A stretch of 64,000 nucleotides of DNA from Victivallis lenta (GTDB lineage Bacteria; Verrucomicrobiota; Lentisphaeria; Victivallales; Victivallaceae). Under the pieces are notes generated by a model. The model was given only the letters and a program-made list of their open reading frames with translations, was not told the origin of the DNA and ran no database searches. Positions 6,133 through 52,233 of the stretch are shown here, in pieces; the first letter of the stretch is position 1; the number at the start of each line of letters is the position of its first letter. Made by a program: the position numbers and the translations under genes. The stretch covers positions 124,001 to 188,000 of the forward strand of contig NZ_VUNS01000002.1 in NCBI RefSeq assembly GCF_009695545.1, read 5' to 3'.

Positions 6133-7127
6133 AACTTCCTCCAGTCAAATACGATGCCGAGCGGCGGATGCGCGCATTCGGCCAGTCTGCGGTAAACCGC
6201 CGGAGCCTCCTCCGGGCGGACGATCTCCGAAATGACCGGCCTGGCGCGAAACCGCTTTGCGGCGGCCAGCCCGAGCAGCGTGCGGAAATCGTCGCGGTAC
6301 GTCCAGTATCCCGGCGAGGAGTCCTCCTTCGGGCGCACGAAGTTGTGCGCGCCGACGATTGAGATTCCGGGCCTGTGCACATCGCGGTAGAAATCGACCG
6401 GCTCGTCTGAAATCCGGGTGCAGCCGAGCAGCACGACCCGCCCGCGGAACGAGGCGCATTCGAGCGCCTGGTTCAAAGCGTGTGCGGAACCGGTCACTTC
6501 GATGACCGCATCCGCCCCGCGCCCGCCGGTCGCGGCTTTCACCTTCTCCGCCAGCTCCGGGTCGTCCGGCGAAAACACCAGATCCGCGCCGAGCGCGAGC
6601 GCAAGGCCGCGTCGCTTTTCCTCGAAGTCGGTTGCGATCACCGTAAGCGCTCCGTCGAGCTTCGCCAGTTCGACGGCAAAGATTCCGAGCAGCCCCAGCC
6701 CTTCGACCAGAACCGCCTCGCCGAGCTCGATTCGCGCCTTGCGGACCCCCTGCAGGGACATCGCGGCAATGACTGTGAACGCCGCCTCGAGCGGATCGGC
6801 CGCCGGATCGACGACGGTCAGCCCGGCGGCAGGTTTCACGAACAAACTGCAATGCCCGGCATGGTCCGCCAGCACGCGCTCTCCGACCCGTACCGTCTCC
6901 ACGTCCCCGCCGGCAGCGACGACGCGCCCGATGCCGCAATAGCCGGGATACTGCGGAAATGTCTGCGGCGTATTCGGTTTCGCAATCAGGCAGGCACGCT
7001 CGGTTCCCGCACTCAATACGGAATACTCCATTCCGATCAGCACCTCTCCGCGCCCCGGCGGCGAAACTTCGAATTCCTGAAGCTCCGCCTCCCCGGCCCG
7101 CGGCCAGACGATTCGTTTCCCGGTCAT
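6129..7127 (-). CDS. MDR alcohol/polyol dehydrogenase-like protein
   Basis: A 332-residue medium-chain dehydrogenase. Visible are SAGTERACLI at the place where classical zinc enzymes carry CGTD, a nucleotide-binding VEGLGLLGIFAVELAKL, and DAVIEVTGSAHALNQALEC. The usual catalytic zinc cysteine is therefore not obvious. This matches the SAGTE subfamily seen in threonine-dehydrogenase-like and BchC-like proteins. Start: ATG at 7127 with GGAGGG six bases upstream, chosen over an upstream in-frame ATG lacking an RBS. It is the first gene of the operon, 47 bases from a good promoter (7174-7201) and divergent from the LacI gene at 7303. Confidence 0.88.
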   Translation of the reverse strand: MTGKRIVWPRAGEAELQEFEVSPPGRGEVLIGMEYSVLSAGTERACLIAKPNTPQTFPQYPGYCGIGRVVAAGGDVETVRVGERVLADHAGHCSLFVKPAAGLTVVDPAADPLEAAFTVIAAMSLQGVRKARIELGEAVLVEGLGLLGIFAVELAKLDGALTVIATDFEEKRRGLALALGADLVFSPDDPELAEKVKAATGGRGADAVIEVTGSAHALNQALECASFRGRVVLLGCTRISDEPVDFYRDVHRPGISIVGAHNFVRPKEDSSPGYWTYRDDFRTLLGLAAAKRFRARPVISEIVRPEEAPAVYRRLAECAHPPLGIVFDWRKL

Positions 7128-7173
7128 TCTTCCCTCCGTGTTTCCGGTTGAAATCCGCCCTTGTTTGTCTTTA

Positions 7174-7201
7174 ATTATACCCCGGCTCCGCCCGAAAACA
7201 A
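7174..7201 (-). promoter_or_regulatory. sigma-70-type promoter of the 7127-to-1 operon
   Basis: On the reverse strand, TTGTTT (7201-7196) and TATAAT (7179-7174) are 16 bases apart. The -10 is perfect, the -35 fair. Transcription would start near 7167, leaving a leader of about 40 bases. It lies between the divergent LacI gene and the operon, as expected for local repressor control, although I found no convincing LacI-type operator here. Confidence 0.65.
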
Positions 7202-7246
7202 GAGCACGGCCCGGTTCATTCATGCAAAACAGGATGAAAATAAATT

Positions 7247-7274
7247 TTGTTTTCAACTGATTCCGGTGTATATT
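7247..7274 (+). promoter_or_regulatory. candidate promoter of the LacI gene
   Basis: TTGTTT (7247-7252) and TATATT (7269-7274) are spaced 16 bases apart, 29 bases before the LacI start codon. The AT-rich island contrasts with the GC-rich surroundings. Weak -35, acceptable -10. Confidence 0.45.
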
Positions 7275-7302
7275 GAAAATGAATCAACCGGGAGAGCTTT
7301 TC

Positions 7303-8271
7303 ATGAAAATTCAGGAGATTGCGAGGGAGGCCGGCGTCTCGCCGGCGACTGTGTCGCGCGTATTCGCCAACCATCCGAACATCCGCGAGGAGGTGCGCGA
7401 ACAGGTTTTCGCGGTCGCGCGGAAGTACGGCTACCATCCGCGCCTCTCCTCGAAGCAGCAGAACGTCGTCATCGTCAGTCCGTACCACGAGATCTACCCG
7501 ATCCGCAGCTACGTCGAAATGGTGATTTCCGAGCTGGCGCTCGCGCTTTCCGCGCGCGGCTACCGCATCGAGATGCTGCCGCAGGACAATCTCGGGCAGC
7601 TCGAGCGCATCCGCTTCTGCGGCGCGGTTTCGATCGGCATCGACGCGGAGGAGTTCGGAAACTGGGAGGAGCGTTTCGCCGCCCCGCTCATCGTCGTCGA
7701 CCGCGACGCCCCGGCCGGCCCCGGCGAGATCTACTCGGTCCGCTCCGACGAAAACCAGGCCATGGCACTCGGGGTCGGCTGCCTCGCCGAACACGGCTGC
7801 CGCAGGGTCGGCATCATCATTTACGGAAAACCCGGAATCGGCAACGCGGAACTGCGGCGGGAAGCCGCGCTCTCCGCGCTCCGCCGCTGCGGGCTGCCGG
7901 TTTCGGGCCGGCTCGTGCGCTTCGCCCTCACCGAGTCCTACGTCGAAGAGGTCGGCAGGCTCCTGAAGTACGGCATCGACGGCCTTTTCTGTCCCGGCGG
8001 GGATGCCGGAATCCTCGCGGCCTATGCGCTGTCGCTCTACAACCGGCGCATTCCGGACGACATTTCGCTCGTCGCCTCGGAACGCACGATGTATTCCCGC
8101 TATGCGATTCCGCCGCAGACCACGATCACGCAGGACTACGCCGCCCAGGCCGCCGCCGTCGCCGACGCCCTCGACTCACGGCTCCGCGGCAACCCGTTCC
8201 CGCAGCGGACCGTCATCCCGTACCGCCTCATCGAACGCGACAGCGTCGGCGGGCGCCATTCCGTCCCGTGA
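7303..8271 (+). CDS. LacI-family transcriptional regulator
   Basis: A 322-residue repressor. The helix-turn-helix is at residues ~1-25 (MKIQEIAREAGVSPATVSRV), followed by the hinge region and a periplasmic-binding-like sensor domain with GCRRVGIIIYGKPG and DGLFCPGGDAGI. ATG at 7303 with GGGAGAG upstream is preferred to a TTG at 7273. It is divergent from the dehydrogenase operon (7127 to 1), which I infer it controls in response to a sugar-like ligand. The stretch SSKQQNVVIVSPYHEIYP lacks the long hinge helix LxxLGYxPN of many LacI proteins, so the DNA-hinge contact may be reduced. Confidence 0.92.
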   Translation: MKIQEIAREAGVSPATVSRVFANHPNIREEVREQVFAVARKYGYHPRLSSKQQNVVIVSPYHEIYPIRSYVEMVISELALALSARGYRIEMLPQDNLGQLERIRFCGAVSIGIDAEEFGNWEERFAAPLIVVDRDAPAGPGEIYSVRSDENQAMALGVGCLAEHGCRRVGIIIYGKPGIGNAELRREAALSALRRCGLPVSGRLVRFALTESYVEEVGRLLKYGIDGLFCPGGDAGILAAYALSLYNRRIPDDISLVASERTMYSRYAIPPQTTITQDYAAQAAAVADALDSRLRGNPFPQRTVIPYRLIERDSVGGRHSVP

Positions 8272-8347
8272 TCGCGGGCGGCGGGGAAGATACATGCCGC
8301 AATTTCGGAAATTACAGCCTTTTCCCCCGGCGGAACAGGGCGCGGCA

Positions 8348-8356
8348 TGCTATATT
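8348..8356 (+). promoter_or_regulatory. extended -10 promoter of the sialidase-like gene
   Basis: TGC followed by TATATT (8351-8356) gives an extended -10 without a recognisable -35, about 35 bases before the next start codon. The same TGCTATATT string occurs at 24943-24951. Confidence 0.4.
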
Positions 8357-8391
8357 CTTCCCGGAACCACCAGAACAGGAGATGACAGATC

Positions 8392-9483
8392 ATGAAACCA
8401 GCCTTCACCCTCCGCCGCGTCCTGCAACTGCCCCCGAAACCCGGAAACCCGCGCAACTCCGAAGGCGGCTTCGTCACGCTGCGGGACGGCCGGATTCTCT
8501 TCGTCTACACCCGCTATTACGGAGAATCCTGGGACGACCATGCCCCGGCCGAACTCGCCGCCCGGATCAGCACCGACGGCGGTCGAAGCTACCTGCCGGA
8601 CGAGCGGATCATCGTGCCGAATGAGGGAAGGAACGTCATGAGCGTCTCGCTGCTCCGGCTCGCCGACGGCCGGATCGCGCTCGTCTACCTGCGCAAAAGC
8701 GGCGGCGACGCCTGCGACTGCCGCCCGTATCTGCGTACCTCGTCCGACGAGGGCGAGAGCTGGAGCGCCCCGGCCGACATCATCGGGCTGCCCGGCTATT
8801 TCGTGGTCAACAACGACCGGCTGATCCAGCTCTCAAGCGGCAGGCTGCTCCTGCCGGCCGCATTTCACCGCTATTGCCGGAACGCGCAGGGGCGGGTCGA
8901 ACCGGGAGCGCGCGGCATCGTGCTCTTCTACGCATCCGACGACGGCGGAGCAAGCTGGCGGGAGCTGCCGGAGTGGATTCTCCCGCCGCGGCAGCTCGAC
9001 ACCGGTTTTCAGGAGCCCGGCGCCGTCGAACTCGCCGACGGCCGGATTTTTGCCTGTTTCCGCACCGGCGACGGCGCCCAGTACACCGCACGCTCAGAGG
9101 ACGGAGGCGAGCACTGGAGCGACCCGGTCCGGAACGAAGCGTTTCCGTCGCCCGCCGCGCCGCTCTCGATGAAGCGCAATCCGTCCACCGGCGAACTCTT
9201 CGCCGTCTGGGACGATCTCAGCCCGGAACGGAAGATCCCGCGCACGCCCGAGAGCTGGAACCGGACGCCGCTCGTGCTTGCCCGCAGCAGCGACGGCGGA
9301 AAGAGCTGGCACGGGCATATCGAACTCGAAAACGCCCCCGACCACGGCTACTGCTACACGGCCATGCATTTTACCGGAGACGCCCTCCTGCTCGGCTACT
9401 GTTCAGGCGGCGGAACCAGCGGCGTGCTGCAGACGCTCACGCTCGCCCGCCTCGAATACCGCTCCGAGCCCGGCGGCGCATGA
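8392..9483 (+). CDS. sialidase-fold (BNR/Asp-box) hydrolase, cytoplasmic
   Basis: A 363-residue six-bladed beta-propeller. Five Asp-box motifs are visible (STDGGRSY, SSDEGESW, ASDDGGASW, SEDGGEHW, SSDGGKSW). LRDGRILFVYTRYY at the N-terminus resembles exo-alpha-sialidase-like proteins. There is no signal peptide, so it acts inside the cell if this start (AGGAG about nine bases upstream) is right. Many bacterial proteins of this type are annotated as sialidases but lack the arginine triad; I cannot confirm the triad by eye. It follows the LacI gene on the same strand with its own extended -10, and may process an oligosaccharide tied to the upstream pathway. Confidence 0.85.
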   Translation: MKPAFTLRRVLQLPPKPGNPRNSEGGFVTLRDGRILFVYTRYYGESWDDHAPAELAARISTDGGRSYLPDERIIVPNEGRNVMSVSLLRLADGRIALVYLRKSGGDACDCRPYLRTSSDEGESWSAPADIIGLPGYFVVNNDRLIQLSSGRLLLPAAFHRYCRNAQGRVEPGARGIVLFYASDDGGASWRELPEWILPPRQLDTGFQEPGAVELADGRIFACFRTGDGAQYTARSEDGGEHWSDPVRNEAFPSPAAPLSMKRNPSTGELFAVWDDLSPERKIPRTPESWNRTPLVLARSSDGGKSWHGHIELENAPDHGYCYTAMHFTGDALLLGYCSGGGTSGVLQTLTLARLEYRSEPGGA

Positions 9484-41231: not shown

Positions 41232-42272
41232 CTACTCCAACGCTTCCCGGAGGAACTCCGCGTATATGGGACCGTATTTCTGAATCGAATAATCGCGTGC
41301 GAGGGAACGGGCGTTCGCGGACAGGCGGATGCGGACGGCATCATCCGCGAGAAGCCGGAGCGCTTCGGCCCACTCACCCGGCGCCGAGGCGAAAAATCCG
41401 GTCTCCCCGGCACGCAGCACCCGGCGGTTCTCCCCGACCGGACTCGCAATGGCCGGCAGTCCGGCCGCGAGATACTGAATCAGCTTGAAGGCCGATTTTC
41501 CGGCCGCAAACGCGTCGTCCGCCGGCAGCGGCATGATCCCGGCGTGGCAGCGCGACAACAGCGCCGCTTCATTTTCCGGCGACCACTCCTCGAACCGCAT
41601 CCGGACGCCCGGAACCGCACGCGGCCCGAGGCTCTTCTTCGCTATGACGAGCAGCTCGAACTCCGCCGCGCGGGACATCGCCCGCAATGCCTCGGCATGC
41701 CGCTCCAGATAGGAGTAAGTGACCGGCGTTCCGATCCAGGCGACCGTGAAGCGCGGGAACTTCTCCGCCTGAAGCGGAAACGCATCGAGATCCACCGCAG
41801 TCGGGATCTTGACCGCATCCGGATTAAGTTTCAGCACCTTTTCCAGCAGCAGGTCGTTCGCGCAGACCACGCCGCACGCCCCGGCGACCAGCCGGTCGTA
41901 CTTGTCCGCCAGCCGCCCCCTGCCCTCGTATTTGATCCAGACATCGTCATCGAAATTCAGCACGTAGCGCCGGCCGCGCAGAAAACGCGCCTCTATGCCG
42001 TACGGAAGTTCCGGCAGCAGCTCGTATTCAATCAGCAGCTTCTCCGGCAGCCGTGTCGACGCGGCAAACCGCCGGACCAGCGCCGCCGCCGCCAGCAGCC
42101 GGGACTTCCCCCGCCCGGCATAGAGCCGGGTCAGGTAGGCATCGCTGAAAAACGGGTGAAATTCCGGCGCGAAACCGGCCGCTTCGAACGCGGCGCGATA
42201 ACCGTAATAGCGCAGGCGGCTCGAAGCGCCAAGCCGGTCATAACGTGTATAAACCCCCAGCGGAACGCTCAT
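41232..42272 (-). CDS. glycosyltransferase, GT4-like
   Basis: A 346-residue GT-B glycosyltransferase: N-terminal RYDRLGASSRLRYYGYRAAF, VLNFDDDVWIKYEG, CANDLLLEKVLKLNPDAVKI, and a C-terminal nucleotide-sugar site including AFAAGKSAFKLIQYLAAGLP and SPVGENRRVL. It overlaps the glycerophosphodiesterase gene by ATGA (42269-42272). Acceptor unknown; a cell-envelope glycan is likely from the family. Confidence 0.88.
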   Translation of the reverse strand: MSVPLGVYTRYDRLGASSRLRYYGYRAAFEAAGFAPEFHPFFSDAYLTRLYAGRGKSRLLAAAALVRRFAASTRLPEKLLIEYELLPELPYGIEARFLRGRRYVLNFDDDVWIKYEGRGRLADKYDRLVAGACGVVCANDLLLEKVLKLNPDAVKIPTAVDLDAFPLQAEKFPRFTVAWIGTPVTYSYLERHAEALRAMSRAAEFELLVIAKKSLGPRAVPGVRMRFEEWSPENEAALLSRCHAGIMPLPADDAFAAGKSAFKLIQYLAAGLPAIASPVGENRRVLRAGETGFFASAPGEWAEALRLLADDAVRIRLSANARSLARDYSIQKYGPIYAEFLREALE

Positions 42273-43081
42273 TTCGTCTTCCCGACCCGGTCCATCAGAA
42301 AGCGGGCGCGATTCGAAGTGATCGAATCGACGCCGAGCTTGCGGGCGTGTTCGGCCAGGACGGGATCGTCCACCGTCCAGCAGTGGACTTCAAGCCCGGC
42401 ATCGCGGAATTTCTTCACCAGCGCCTCATCCCAGAACATGCCGAACGACAGGTCGACGCCGTCCGCCTTCGCCTCCTTCGCCGTCTTTACCATCTCGTCA
42501 AGATCCTGCTTCAGCCGTTTTTTCTCCGCGTCCCACGACAGGCCGGCGAGAAAATACGCGCGATATTCCGGCAGCAGTTCCTTCATCGCCCGGACCGCAT
42601 CGGCATGGAAACTGATGAAGCGCACCTGCTCCGGTCCCTTCCCGTGCCGGCGGACAAGGGCGGCAACCGCTTCGGCAAGGCCCGGCTCGCGGTCTTTGAG
42701 CTCAATGTAGACAAGCCCCTTCCCCGGCATGGCGGTGAGAAGCTCCGAAAACAGCGGCAATTTCTCTCCGGCGAACTGTCTGCCCCTGAAGCTGCCGACG
42801 TCGAGTTTCCGCAGTTCCTCCGCCGAACTGCGGGCGACCGGCAGCTTCGTCCCGGCGACGCGGCCGGTATCGCCGTCGTGAATCACGACCACCTCCCCGT
42901 CCGCCGTCCGGTGAACGTCGCACTCGATGCCGTCGGTGCCGCGCTCCCAGGCCAGGCGAAAGGCGGCCATGGTGTTCTCCGGCGCATCGGCGCTCTCCCC
43001 GCGGTGCGAAATATAGAGCACTCCGGCGGAGCAGACGAAACAGAGCAGCATGGCGGCGAACGACAGAATCAGTGTTTTCAT
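42269..43081 (-). CDS. secreted glycerophosphodiester phosphodiesterase
   Basis: A 270-residue protein with a signal peptide (MKTLILSFAAMLLCFVCSAG) and the GDPD catalytic features ISHRGESADAPENTMAAF, GIECDVHRTADGEVVVIHD and the late HCWTVDD. It hydrolyses glycerophosphodiesters to glycerol-3-phosphate and an alcohol, outside the cytoplasm. Start at 43081 chosen for the signal peptide (CAAGGAG... weak RBS). First gene of the GDPD-glycosyltransferase-AraC unit. Confidence 0.92.
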   Translation of the reverse strand: MKTLILSFAAMLLCFVCSAGVLYISHRGESADAPENTMAAFRLAWERGTDGIECDVHRTADGEVVVIHDGDTGRVAGTKLPVARSSAEELRKLDVGSFRGRQFAGEKLPLFSELLTAMPGKGLVYIELKDREPGLAEAVAALVRRHGKGPEQVRFISFHADAVRAMKELLPEYRAYFLAGLSWDAEKKRLKQDLDEMVKTAKEAKADGVDLSFGMFWDEALVKKFRDAGLEVHCWTVDDPVLAEHARKLGVDSITSNRARFLMDRVGKTK

Positions 43082-43285
43082 GACAAGGAGCCTCCCGGTT
43101 TGCGTTGTCCGGTAACATACCGCCCGGCCGGAGTTTTTGCAAATCCATTTCCGGTCAAAACATTCCGTTCGAAACATTTTTGTTCAGCCGGGGGGCCGGA
43201 TGATACAAAATTGTAAAACCATCCCCGCCGGTAAAAACAGCGCAACCATTTCCGGATGAAGATAATGCCATGCGCCCCACAAAAC

Positions 43286-45215: not shown

Positions 45216-46514
45216 TCAGGTGACGGCGAATGCGGGAATGCAGAAATTCTCCGGCAGATCCCAGCCGCCGCGCAGAAAGAGATGCTCCGGTTCGGGCGGC
45301 GTCTCCCAGTCGAATTCGACGCCGAGCCGGTCCGGAGGGAAACCGAATTCCACCCGCCGGATATTCCGGAACGGCAGGCGCGCCGCCAGCGTCTCCCAGT
45401 CGACCGGACGGTCGCAGAGAAGCTCATGCAGCAGCAGCGTGTCCCCGCACTGCTCCGCCGCGACGGCGAGACCGGGGCCGAGCCGCAGCAGCCGGTCCGC
45501 ATATCCGCCGAAGAGATGAAAGCAGCGCAGCTCCCGGCAGTCGAGCACATCGAACACGGCGGACGGGAAACGCCGTTTTCCGGCCAGCGGGGCAGCCGCG
45601 TCCGGCGTGCATCTCTCCGGTTCGAACGGGTTGTCGATCGACAACCGCGCAACCGGCCGCATCGTACGCGCCGCAGAAAATCCGAACTTCGGGTAGAAGT
45701 CCGACACGGAATCGTTCGCGAACAGAAAAACCGGCGTCTCCGCATAGCGCCGCAGGACGCCGCCGAGCAGCCGCCTCATATATCCCTGCCCGCGCGCTTC
45801 CGGAGAAGTGGCCACTCCGCCGAGCTGAATCGCAAAAAACTCTTTCCCCTTCACGCGCAGCTTCATGCGCGAGACGCCGACATGGGCGACCATGCGCCCG
45901 GCGTCGATCAGGGAGAAACTCTCGTACTTGTCGCTCCACATGCCGCGCCGGAACCAGAAATCGAAGTCGAAGTCGAACACCTCGCGCATCAGGACATTCA
46001 GCTGCACGGCATATTCCGGGTCGAAGCCGTTCCGCATCCGGATCGGCAGCTCCCGCCCGGCCGAACGCGCTTCGCGGAAGAAGGCCGCGAGCAGATTCCG
46101 CGCTTCGGCGGCGCAGATTTCCGGCGTGACTTCGGGTTTCCAGAGGGAACCGGGGTGGGCCGGAATCCCGAACACGGAGCAGCCGCCGAAGCGCGGGTCC
46201 GCGGCTCCGTAGACGATGCGGCGCACCCGGGCGTTGACCAGCGCGCCGGCGCACATCGGGCAAGGCTCCTTCGTGACATAGACCGTCACGTCCTCCATGC
46301 GCCAGTCGCCGCGCAGCAGTTCAAGCTTGTGCAGCAGCTCAAGCTCGGCGTGGGCGGTTGCGCTTCTGCGCTCCTCGACCCGGTTGCGGGCGGAGACGAC
46401 CGCCTTGCCGCCTACGACGGCGACGGCGCCGACCGGAACCTCTCCGGCCCGCGCCGCCTCCTCCGCCTGCTCAAGCGCAAGCGCCATAAACCGCCGGTCG
46501 CAGGAATTCATCAT
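45216..46514 (-). CDS. TadA-like tRNA adenosine deaminase fused to a GNAT acetyltransferase
   Basis: A 432-residue two-domain protein. Residues 1-155 match TadA, which makes inosine-34 in tRNA-Arg: zinc ligands H55 (AHAELELL), C85 and C88 (EPCPMCAGAL), catalytic E57. Residues ~155-300 are a GNAT domain with the acetyl-CoA loop VATSPEARGQGYMRRLLGG and DFYPKFGFS. The last ~130 residues form a further domain like that in larger GNATs (Eis-like). The frame is continuous. ATG at 46514 overlaps the upstream lipoprotein stop (ATGA). TadA is usually essential, so the fused enzyme may be the cell's only copy. Confidence 0.9.
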   Translation of the reverse strand: MMNSCDRRFMALALEQAEEAARAGEVPVGAVAVVGGKAVVSARNRVEERRSATAHAELELLHKLELLRGDWRMEDVTVYVTKEPCPMCAGALVNARVRRIVYGAADPRFGGCSVFGIPAHPGSLWKPEVTPEICAAEARNLLAAFFREARSAGRELPIRMRNGFDPEYAVQLNVLMREVFDFDFDFWFRRGMWSDKYESFSLIDAGRMVAHVGVSRMKLRVKGKEFFAIQLGGVATSPEARGQGYMRRLLGGVLRRYAETPVFLFANDSVSDFYPKFGFSAARTMRPVARLSIDNPFEPERCTPDAAAPLAGKRRFPSAVFDVLDCRELRCFHLFGGYADRLLRLGPGLAVAAEQCGDTLLLHELLCDRPVDWETLAARLPFRNIRRVEFGFPPDRLGVEFDWETPPEPEHLFLRGGWDLPENFCIPAFAVT

Positions 46515-47507: not shown

Positions 47508-47535
47508 TTGCATTTTCATTTTTCGGGGCTATAGT
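47508..47535 (+). promoter_or_regulatory. promoter of the decarboxylase gene
   Basis: TTGCAT (47508-47513) and TATAGT (47530-47535), spacing 16. The ~110-base leader holds a small stem CCTGAA-CAC-TTCAGG. Confidence 0.6.
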
Positions 47536-47649
47536 CATTGGTATGAGGAGAAGATCAGGGCCTGAACACTTCAGGTCCCATTCAGGTTTGGGCGGCGGGA
47601 TGCGTCATCGACGCCGTTCAATAAAAAAACCAAAAGAGGAGAAATCATC

Positions 47650-48921
47650 ATGAGCACAACGATCAAACCGATCAACAAGACGTTTACAGCCGGCAAGTGG
47701 ATGCCCAGGGACCGCGAAACGCTGGTCAACTGGATGCAGAAAGTCATGGACAAGGCGGAGAAGGACACGGGTCCGCTGCTGCCGGTCGTCGAAAATCTGA
47801 AGAATTTCATCGAAACCGACGCCAAGGCCTACATGTTTTTCAACCAGATGTTCGACGAAGTTCCGGCGGACAAGAAGAAAACCCTGCTCGGGCTGCCGCA
47901 GGTGCGCGACTACCAGCATATGCTGAGGCTGTTCAACGTGATCCTGACTCATGCGCCGAGCTTCAACGAAACCGGTTTCGTCGGATTCCCGTTCAACGCG
48001 ATCCTGGACTGGTCGATGGCGACGACCGGCGGCTGGGCCGGGTTCATCAACGACAAGGTCAACGTCCACATCAAGGCGATTCTGGATGCGTGGGGAACGT
48101 TCCTGCGTTCGCCGGAGAGCGCCTACGTCCTGAGCGACCATCCGCGAAACGGCTGGTTCGGGGAAGACGCCAGAAAAGCGCTGCCGAATTTCGCCGACGA
48201 GTTCGTCTGCGATCCGTCGAAGCCGCATTACGGCTTCAACTCATGGGATCACTTCTTCGTGCGTGAATTCCGTGAGGGTGTGCGCCCCATCGCCGAGCCG
48301 GACAACGACGCCGTCGTCGTCAACGCCTGCGAATCCGCACCCTTCGCCATCGCCAGGAATGTCCAGCTGCTGGACAAATTCTGGATCAAGGCCCAGCCGT
48401 ACGCCCTGCAGTTCATGCTGAACAACGACCCGTGGACGAAGCGGTTCGTCGGCGGCACCATCTACCAGGCGTTCCTGAGCGCGCTGACCTATCACCGCTG
48501 GCATTCGCCGGTCTCCGGACGCATCGTCAAGACCTACGTGATCCCGGGCTCCTATTATTCTGAAGCCCGCAGCGTCGGCTATGACCCGGTCGCGCCCAAC
48601 GATTCCCAGGGCTACATCTCGGAAATCGCGACGCGCGCGGTGATCTTCATCGAAGCGGACAACCCCGACATCGGGCTCATGTGCTTCGTCGCCATCGGCA
48701 TGGCGGAGGTTTCGACCTGCGACATCACCGTCTACGAGGGGCAGCATGTCAAGAAAGGTCAGGAGACCGGCATGTTCCACTTCGGCGGCTCCACGCACTG
48801 CCTGATCTTCGGACCGCACGTCAACATCGACTTCGATCTGGGCGGGCAGACCCCGGGAATCGAAAGCGAGAACATCAACATCAATGCGCGCATCGCCACA
48901 GTCGGCCCGCGCAAAAAGTAA
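47650..48921 (+). CDS. pyruvoyl-type PSD/PsiD-like decarboxylase
   Basis: A 423-residue protein of the phosphatidylserine-decarboxylase superfamily. The N-terminal ~190 residues match the extra domain found in PsiD-type proteins (VVENLKNFIETDAKAYMFFN, NSWDHFFVREFREGVRPI). The catalytic part has ALTYHRWHSPVSG (H285) and FHFGGSTHCLIFG; self-cleavage between G380 and S381 would generate the pyruvoyl cofactor. PsiD from mushrooms decarboxylates tryptophan; other relatives act on phosphatidylserine. There is no transmembrane segment, arguing against a membrane-lipid role. RBS AGAGGAG. Standalone, ended by a strong terminator. Confidence 0.88.
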   Translation: MSTTIKPINKTFTAGKWMPRDRETLVNWMQKVMDKAEKDTGPLLPVVENLKNFIETDAKAYMFFNQMFDEVPADKKKTLLGLPQVRDYQHMLRLFNVILTHAPSFNETGFVGFPFNAILDWSMATTGGWAGFINDKVNVHIKAILDAWGTFLRSPESAYVLSDHPRNGWFGEDARKALPNFADEFVCDPSKPHYGFNSWDHFFVREFREGVRPIAEPDNDAVVVNACESAPFAIARNVQLLDKFWIKAQPYALQFMLNNDPWTKRFVGGTIYQAFLSALTYHRWHSPVSGRIVKTYVIPGSYYSEARSVGYDPVAPNDSQGYISEIATRAVIFIEADNPDIGLMCFVAIGMAEVSTCDITVYEGQHVKKGQETGMFHFGGSTHCLIFGPHVNIDFDLGGQTPGIESENININARIATVGPRKK

Positions 48922-48935
48922 GACATGCGAAAAGC

Positions 48936-48971
48936 ATCCCCCGGCGCCTCACCGCGCCGGGGGATTTTTTT
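48936..48971 (+). terminator. intrinsic terminator of the decarboxylase gene
   Basis: ATCCCCCGGCGC pairs with GCGCCGGGGGAT across a 6-base loop, followed by seven T. Confidence 0.95.
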
Positions 48972-51606: not shown

Positions 51607-51645
51607 TATGACAGAGAGGAAATTTCAAGACAAGGAGGAGTGTAT

Positions 51646-52233
51646 ATGAACAAGAATCCCGAAATCACCCTGATTCCGGGCTGCGCGGTGTGGAACCGCA
51701 CGCCGGAAGCCAAACCGATGAGTGTGCGCTCGCGCGGCATCGAGAACGGAATCATCGACATTCGATTCGGCATTTTCGGAACGGACAACGTCGCCGGAAT
51801 CCCGATGCGTTCGCTGCCGTTCACCATCGAACATGCGCCGGAGGGAACCAGGACCTTCGCGCTGACGCTGCTCGACTACGATTCCGTCCCGGTCGCCGGT
51901 TTCTGCTGGATTCACTGGCTCGCCGCCAACTTCGACCGGACGGAAATGCCGGAGAACGCCTCCGCCGAAGACAGTTCGGATTTCGTGCAGGGTGTCAACA
52001 GCTGGGGGGCGCCGCTCCTCGGCCCGAACGCGCTGCACAGGGAAGCGGCCTCCGCTTACGGCGGCATGGTTCCGCCGAACGGACCGCACCGCTATCAGCT
52101 GACCGTCTACGCGCTCAGCGAAAAGCTGCCGCTCAAGGATGGTTTCCTGATGAACGAACTGCTCGACGCGATGAGCGGCCGTGTGCTCGCAGCCGCCACA
52201 CTGAGCGGCCTTTATCCGGCGCCGGAGGAGTAA
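51646..52233 (+). CDS. YbhB/YbcL-type PEBP family protein
   Basis: A 195-residue phosphatidylethanolamine-binding-protein homologue: IPMRSLPFTIEHAPEGTRTF, FCWIHWLAANFD, then GPNGPHRYQLTVYAL-like GGMVPPNGPHRYQLTVYAL. Bacterial PEBPs bind small anionic ligands; their role is unsettled. Start at ATG 51646 with AGGAGGAG; a GTG at 51640 is closer to the RBS. Its 3' end overlaps the convergent glycosyltransferase gene by 22 bases. Confidence 0.88.
   Translation: MNKNPEITLIPGCAVWNRTPEAKPMSVRSRGIENGIIDIRFGIFGTDNVAGIPMRSLPFTIEHAPEGTRTFALTLLDYDSVPVAGFCWIHWLAANFDRTEMPENASAEDSSDFVQGVNSWGAPLLGPNALHREAASAYGGMVPPNGPHRYQLTVYALSEKLPLKDGFLMNELLDAMSGRVLAAATLSGLYPAPEE

Follow-up and report, generated by a model that had tools for sequence, protein, structure and literature searches.

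Decarboxylase–antiporter systems are classic, and amino-acid decarboxylation by an enzyme of the phosphatidylserine decarboxylase (PSD) fold has fungal precedent in both fold and activity. The Aspergillus oryzae enzyme is one of three convergent arginine decarboxylases (ADCs) that depend on a pyruvoyl group (Biochem J, PMC12283126, where the primary report is cited as Murakami et al. 2024), and PsiD is the L-tryptophan decarboxylase of Psilocybe cubensis. The new parts at the Victivallis lenta locus described here are the bacterial pairing with an antiporter and the apparent displacement of AdiA; no bacterial PSD-fold pyruvoyl enzyme in the place of AdiA turned up in the open-access full-text papers searched. 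We consider it likely that this gene encodes a soluble, self-cleaving PSD-fold arginine decarboxylase that works with a TIGR00905 antiporter, was acquired from proteobacteria and displaced AdiA, with a product that is probably agmatine and not tryptamine or a lipid.

The gene occupies positions 47650–48921 (+ strand) of the window, the 64,000-nucleotide stretch of V. lenta contig NZ_VUNS01000002.1 that was analysed. It is an ATG-initiated open reading frame for a PSD-fold, PsiD-like proenzyme of 423 residues, predicted, from its Pfam domains and its kinship with PsiD and A. oryzae ADC in the PDB, to be a pyruvoyl-dependent arginine decarboxylase. An N-terminal PSDC domain (PF12588, E 4.9e-46; residues 45–177, 47782–48180, +) is fused to a PS_Dcarbxylase catalytic domain (PF02666, E 1.7e-36; residues 200–393, 48247–48828, +), which is the domain architecture of the PsiD-like branch of the PSD superfamily in Pfam, whereas the PLP fold-I OKR_DC domain of the AdiA family is absent and both fold and domains differ. 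In the profile alignment with 7cnw, Glu228 (48331–48333, +) of a NACES motif, present in 86 of 93 bacterial rows of the family alignment, falls where E. coli PSD has its catalytic Asp, and His282 (48493–48495, +) of YHRWH aligns with the first His of the E. coli YHRVH motif; HRW is kept in all common variants of this motif across the 93 rows. The predicted self-cleavage site is Gly380–Ser381 (48787–48792, +) within GGST, with Ser381 encoded at 48790–48792. GGST or GGSS is found there in 92/93 bacterial rows, and in PDB structures the beta chain stops at the corresponding GG or GGS. Cleavage is predicted to yield an alpha chain of 43 residues whose pyruvoyl group derives from Ser381. The PsiD-type N-terminal domain and G-S site recognised in the initial annotation are thus confirmed, and the phmmer match to PsiD (E about 4e-74) is far beyond chance. 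Its reading of the protein as lacking a membrane segment likewise holds, the maximum 19-residue Kyte–Doolittle average being 1.66 compared with 2.68 for the other PSD of the genome. The view of a soluble PsiD-like pyruvoyl enzyme that most likely decarboxylates an amino acid is right, and amino-acid decarboxylation as such is well supported.

The gene has no operon partner. A strong intrinsic terminator (12-pair stem, 10 GC, followed by a T run; 48936–48965, +) bears out one half of the earlier claim of a strong promoter and terminator; the strength of the promoter is unsupported by a consensus scan, which found no upstream site with 9/12 or more matches. The candidate promoter TTGCAT-16 nt-TATAGT (47508–47535, +) has 8/12 matches and is nevertheless plausible, because this block is kept in two other Victivallis genomes (L010 and L011) while its flanks have diverged. 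A good ribosome-binding site, GAGGAG, lies 8 nt before the ATG (47636–47641, +) and recurs in most Lentisphaeria homologues; in the upstream alignment conservation is limited to this site and the promoter-like block. The leader gave zero Rfam matches above gathering score, for riboswitches or other RNAs. It holds a near-palindromic hairpin at 47558–47579, GGGCCTGAACACTTCAGGTCCC, a possible operator that is not clearly conserved in other species. Neighbouring genes in the window encode an ammonium transporter, a small lipoprotein-like ORF, a GH3 glycosidase, a PEBP-family protein and glycosyltransferases, and also a deaminase/acetyltransferase (45216–46514, −) that joins a tRNA-adenosine/cytidine-deaminase-type domain to a GNAT acetyltransferase-like one. 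The statement that no lipid genes lie nearby is correct for an operon, but not for the wider surroundings, in which a GDPD-family phosphodiesterase gene (42272–43177) is found 4.5 kb upstream and a PEBP/YbhB-family gene (51640–52233) also lies within 5 kb.

Comparison with the solved relatives places the protein close to both fungal enzymes. With a family profile built from 44 bacterial homologues, A. oryzae ADC (9jer) obtains the highest score, 358 bits, followed by PsiD with 333 bits and, far behind, E. coli PSD with 46 bits, while single-sequence phmmer with the V. lenta protein gives 253 bits for PsiD vs 236 for the ADC. An AlphaFold2 model computed with the 44 homologues (pLDDT 81.6, pTM 0.81) has as its best Foldseek matches PsiD (8ZIA, 8X4Q) and 9JER/9JF5, with a TMq of 0.68 each, against 0.35 for E. 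coli PSD; the latter pair is titled 'Arginine decarboxylase in Aspergillus oryzae' in the Foldseek results, and 9JF5 has arginine bound. Where PsiD and the ADC differ, the V. lenta protein agrees with PsiD at 59 columns and with the ADC at 58, so that overall identity does not separate the two as its relative. Family-conserved N225, F244, W245, Y272, E305 and Q320 have the ADC residue and not that of PsiD (A, V, L, Q and L at the positions of N225, W245, Y272, E305 and Q320) and other positions agree with PsiD, a comparison of sequence columns that does not imply placement in the pocket.

The bacterial PSDC-PSD family is widespread but patchy, with at least 448 confirmed relatives in a species-level genome collection; the matches listed include Pseudomonadota, Bacteroidota, Thermodesulfobacteriota, Acidobacteriota, Actinomycetota and others, as well as plasmids. 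Within Lentisphaeria, the class to which Victivallis belongs, the family occurs in only 11/198 genomes. In a tree of 95 rows, including the two fungal solved relatives (which sit on very long branches, making their position unsure), the V. lenta protein belongs to a 15-row Lentisphaeria clade (support 100/100), which lies within a 30-row clade (98/95); the remaining 15 members of the latter come from Gamma- and Alphaproteobacteria. This nesting among proteobacterial homologues suggests horizontal transfer into Lentisphaeria. A phage or viral origin was rejected, as viral contigs contained no relatives and phages gave only two weak PSD matches. The Klebsiella-type gene was not detected in any of 5,426 E. 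coli genomes. A divergent Lentisphaeria member (genome G043, L009:793–1995; 44% identity) has an N-terminus resembling a signal peptide, with SACDS at the NACES position, and is possibly exported or a different enzyme.

In the proteobacterial part of the 30-row clade the gene has a constant partner. All 15 non-Lentisphaeria members adjoin an APA amino-acid/amine antiporter gene, with gaps of 2 to 156 bp; L093 and L033, which are more distant relatives, also have an antiporter close by. Among the linked antiporters, those from Klebsiella sp. and P. psychrophila score above PotE putrescine–ornithine equivalog cut-offs, and the others tested qualify as TIGR00905 (basic amino acid/polyamine antiporter, ArcD-like). 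In Klebsiella sp. the operon reads aguB-aguA-potE-PSD-like on one strand. Its aguA passes the equivalog for agmatine deiminase, and its aguB shares 58% identity with a protein that passes the N-carbamoylputrescine amidase equivalog; in P. psychrophila aguB also adjoins the antiporter/PSD-like pair. Ruegeria haliotis has an aguA-like gene in two pieces and aguB upstream of such a pair (L027:2952–4794). Other arrangements are an AdiA-like PLP decarboxylase between antiporter and PSD-like gene in L033 and, in Enterobacter, an antiporter/PSD-like pair downstream of yfdX and emr-type genes, which in E. coli are part of an acid-response regulon. Plasmid pUPC1 of Enterobacter cancerogenus, typed as conjugative, carries yfdX, emr-type efflux genes, antiporter and PSD-like gene together (L090:1588–8284), a set that is a mobile stress module. 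Most of the wider family (about 57 rows) is without an antiporter nearby.

Such adjacency is not seen in Victivallis. The V. lenta genome does encode an antiporter of the right family (TIGR00905, 514 bits, C2:425929–427374), which is unlinked to the PSD-like gene and is without an OKR decarboxylase over the surrounding 17 kb (L101). Orthologous antiporter loci of 19 relatives and V. lenta were compared: an OKR decarboxylase adjoins the antiporter in 14/14 PSDC-negative vs 0/6 PSDC-positive Lentisphaeria genomes, V. lenta included (Fisher p 2.6e-5, uncorrected for kinship among the genomes). The NCBIfam AdiA equivalog cut-off is passed by four of five neighbouring OKR proteins tested (e.g. 1257 vs 1167 bits), and the best matches of one that was searched in the PDB are AdiA structures. 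By synteny the locus is the same in both groups: a pair of secretin-like genes lies ahead of the antiporter both in carriers of the PSD-like gene (V. lenta, G002, G003, G005) and in genomes that lack it (G006, G007). In G010 an xerC-like gene brackets adiA on its far side, and a homologue of it brackets the adiA-less antiporter in V. lenta. The arrangement in L101 (C2:418000–435000), where at 6618–9387 the antiporter stands between the xerC-like gene and the two secretin-like genes with no decarboxylase, looks like the footprint of adiA loss, given the position of adiA between xerC-like gene and antiporter in G010. The presence of the antiporter alone (6/6 carriers vs 14/54 non-carriers, divergent G043 left out) is a weak correlation, which becomes meaningful once the AdiA neighbours are examined. 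The best topology of the antiporter tree has about three PSDC-positive lineages, and its supported branches force only one change. Taken together, these observations suggest that the pyruvoyl enzyme displaced AdiA in a non-orthologous manner. OKR_DC is absent genome-wide in five of the six PSDC-positive genomes; V. lenta keeps a second OKR decarboxylase type (L102:7747–11591, C1), which at 735 bits falls short of the AdiA cut-off and has a GadC/TyrP-like antiporter as its partner. The same second type is also present in the non-carriers G004, G007, G026 and G029.

Our results suggest a mechanism for the V. lenta system. Most likely, the proenzyme would cut itself at G380|S381 to generate its own pyruvoyl cofactor, which would form a Schiff base with arginine and, upon decarboxylation, yield agmatine; the antiporter encoded at the unlinked C2 locus would then exchange agmatine for arginine. 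With arginine entering, a proton consumed and agmatine leaving, the two proteins would confer pH tolerance and possibly provide membrane energy. The gene probably arrived by horizontal transfer from proteobacteria, in which its own antiporter adjoins, and the newcomer probably displaced the AdiA-type PLP arginine decarboxylase that relatives still have beside this antiporter. Neither an agmatine deiminase nor a member of the agmatinase/arginase family was found in the V. lenta genome, and agmatine is therefore probably an end product exported in exchange for arginine. The case for arginine as substrate draws on two independent genomic lines, the antiporter/aguBA operons and the replacement of AdiA, and on A. 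oryzae ADC being the closest-scoring solved relative. What counts against this explanation is that gene and antiporter are unlinked in Victivallis, that PotE-type partners fit ornithine equally well, that column matches are shared almost evenly between PsiD and the ADC, that PSDC-positive lineages in the antiporter tree are few, and that most of the wider family lacks a nearby antiporter; moreover, arginine decarboxylation might not depend on the PSD-like gene, since V. lenta keeps the second OKR decarboxylase beside its GadC-like antiporter.

The annotated function, a true phosphatidylserine decarboxylase, follows from the Pfam names and from the RefSeq label of the homologues ('phosphatidylserine decarboxylase family protein'), but we regard it as scarcely credible. 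The separate membrane PSD gene that the initial annotation proposed to look for is present: the V. lenta genome (5.5 Mb, 99.9% complete) has one further PSD-domain gene, encoding a 240-residue protein with hydrophobic segments and overlapping a pssA-like gene, whereas the PSD-like gene of the window has neither a membrane segment nor a pssA link. The presence of this ordinary membrane PSD beside pssA implies that the window protein is not the housekeeping lipid enzyme. It also falls far below the cut-offs of all curated NCBIfam PSD equivalogs (best 98 bits vs 371), E. coli PSD scores 46 bits vs 358 for A. oryzae ADC, and Glu replaces the PSD Asp. A lipid role was rejected on the basis of the separate PSD–pssA pair and the unreached equivalog cut-offs.

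The remaining alternatives concern which amino acid is used. Conversion of tryptophan to tryptamine, the example offered in the initial annotation, is probably wrong; an aromatic amino-acid decarboxylase like fungal PsiD would account for the shared domain architecture, 44% identity and TMq of 0.68, yet is very improbable given that A. oryzae ADC equals PsiD in fold and exceeds it in family-profile score, that the six family-conserved residues side with the ADC, and that the genomic context is one of arginine and agmatine, with aromatic-amine genes absent nearby. Decarboxylation of ornithine (or lysine) to putrescine (or cadaverine), coupled to a PotE- or CadB-like antiporter, gains from the two linked antiporters that pass PotE cut-offs and is unlikely, though less so than the aromatic substrate. 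Most linked antiporters are ArcD-like TIGR00905 proteins and not PotE, the enzyme displaced in Lentisphaeria is AdiA and not SpeF or Ldc, the aguBA products encoded beside the antiporter/PSD-like pair act on agmatine, and among solved relatives an ADC scores nearest.

If arginine is indeed the substrate, the implications extend beyond Victivallis. We lean slightly towards the view that bacterial PSDC-PSD proteins (at least 448, in many phyla) are for the most part PLP-free arginine decarboxylases that have displaced AdiA in the antiport systems of several lineages. Agmatine is bioactive in the gut, and the family would then be a widespread, unrecognised bacterial source of it, gut anaerobes included. 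A function would be assigned to a large family of bacterial proteins that is now misannotated, and arginine-dependent acid resistance would be seen to tolerate an unrelated, self-cleaving, PLP-independent decarboxylase in place of its own. Surveys of gut amine producers would miss the family because they look for PLP enzymes and known pyruvoyl families; a 2025 survey (PMC12484125) mentions neither phosphatidylserine nor PsiD.

Among known systems, E. coli Psd (6L06/7CNW) shares the C-terminal catalytic fold and the YHRxH and GS motifs but is a membrane enzyme without a PSDC domain, with Asp where the V. lenta protein has Glu at the triad position, and matches at 46 bits only. PsiD (8X4Q, 8ZIA) is similar in domain architecture, fold, cleavage motif and 44% identity, but acts on tryptophan and differs at five family-conserved residues (N225, W245, Y272, E305 and Q320). 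A. oryzae ADC (9JER, 9JF5, 9JFN) has the PsiD-like fold, PSDC and PSD domains, a GGS cleavage site, the top profile score and the reaction predicted for the V. lenta enzyme; it is, however, fungal, 41% identical, without known antiporter pairing, and distinct in several catalytic-domain motifs (e.g. YHCWN vs YHRWH). AdiA–AdiC acid resistance is similar in combining a predicted arginine decarboxylase with an arginine/agmatine antiporter, the V. lenta enzyme apparently replacing AdiA beside the orthologous antiporter, and differs in that here a predicted pyruvoyl enzyme of unrelated fold is the decarboxylase, working with an ArcD-like (TIGR00905) antiporter whose gene, in Victivallis, is not linked to that of the enzyme.
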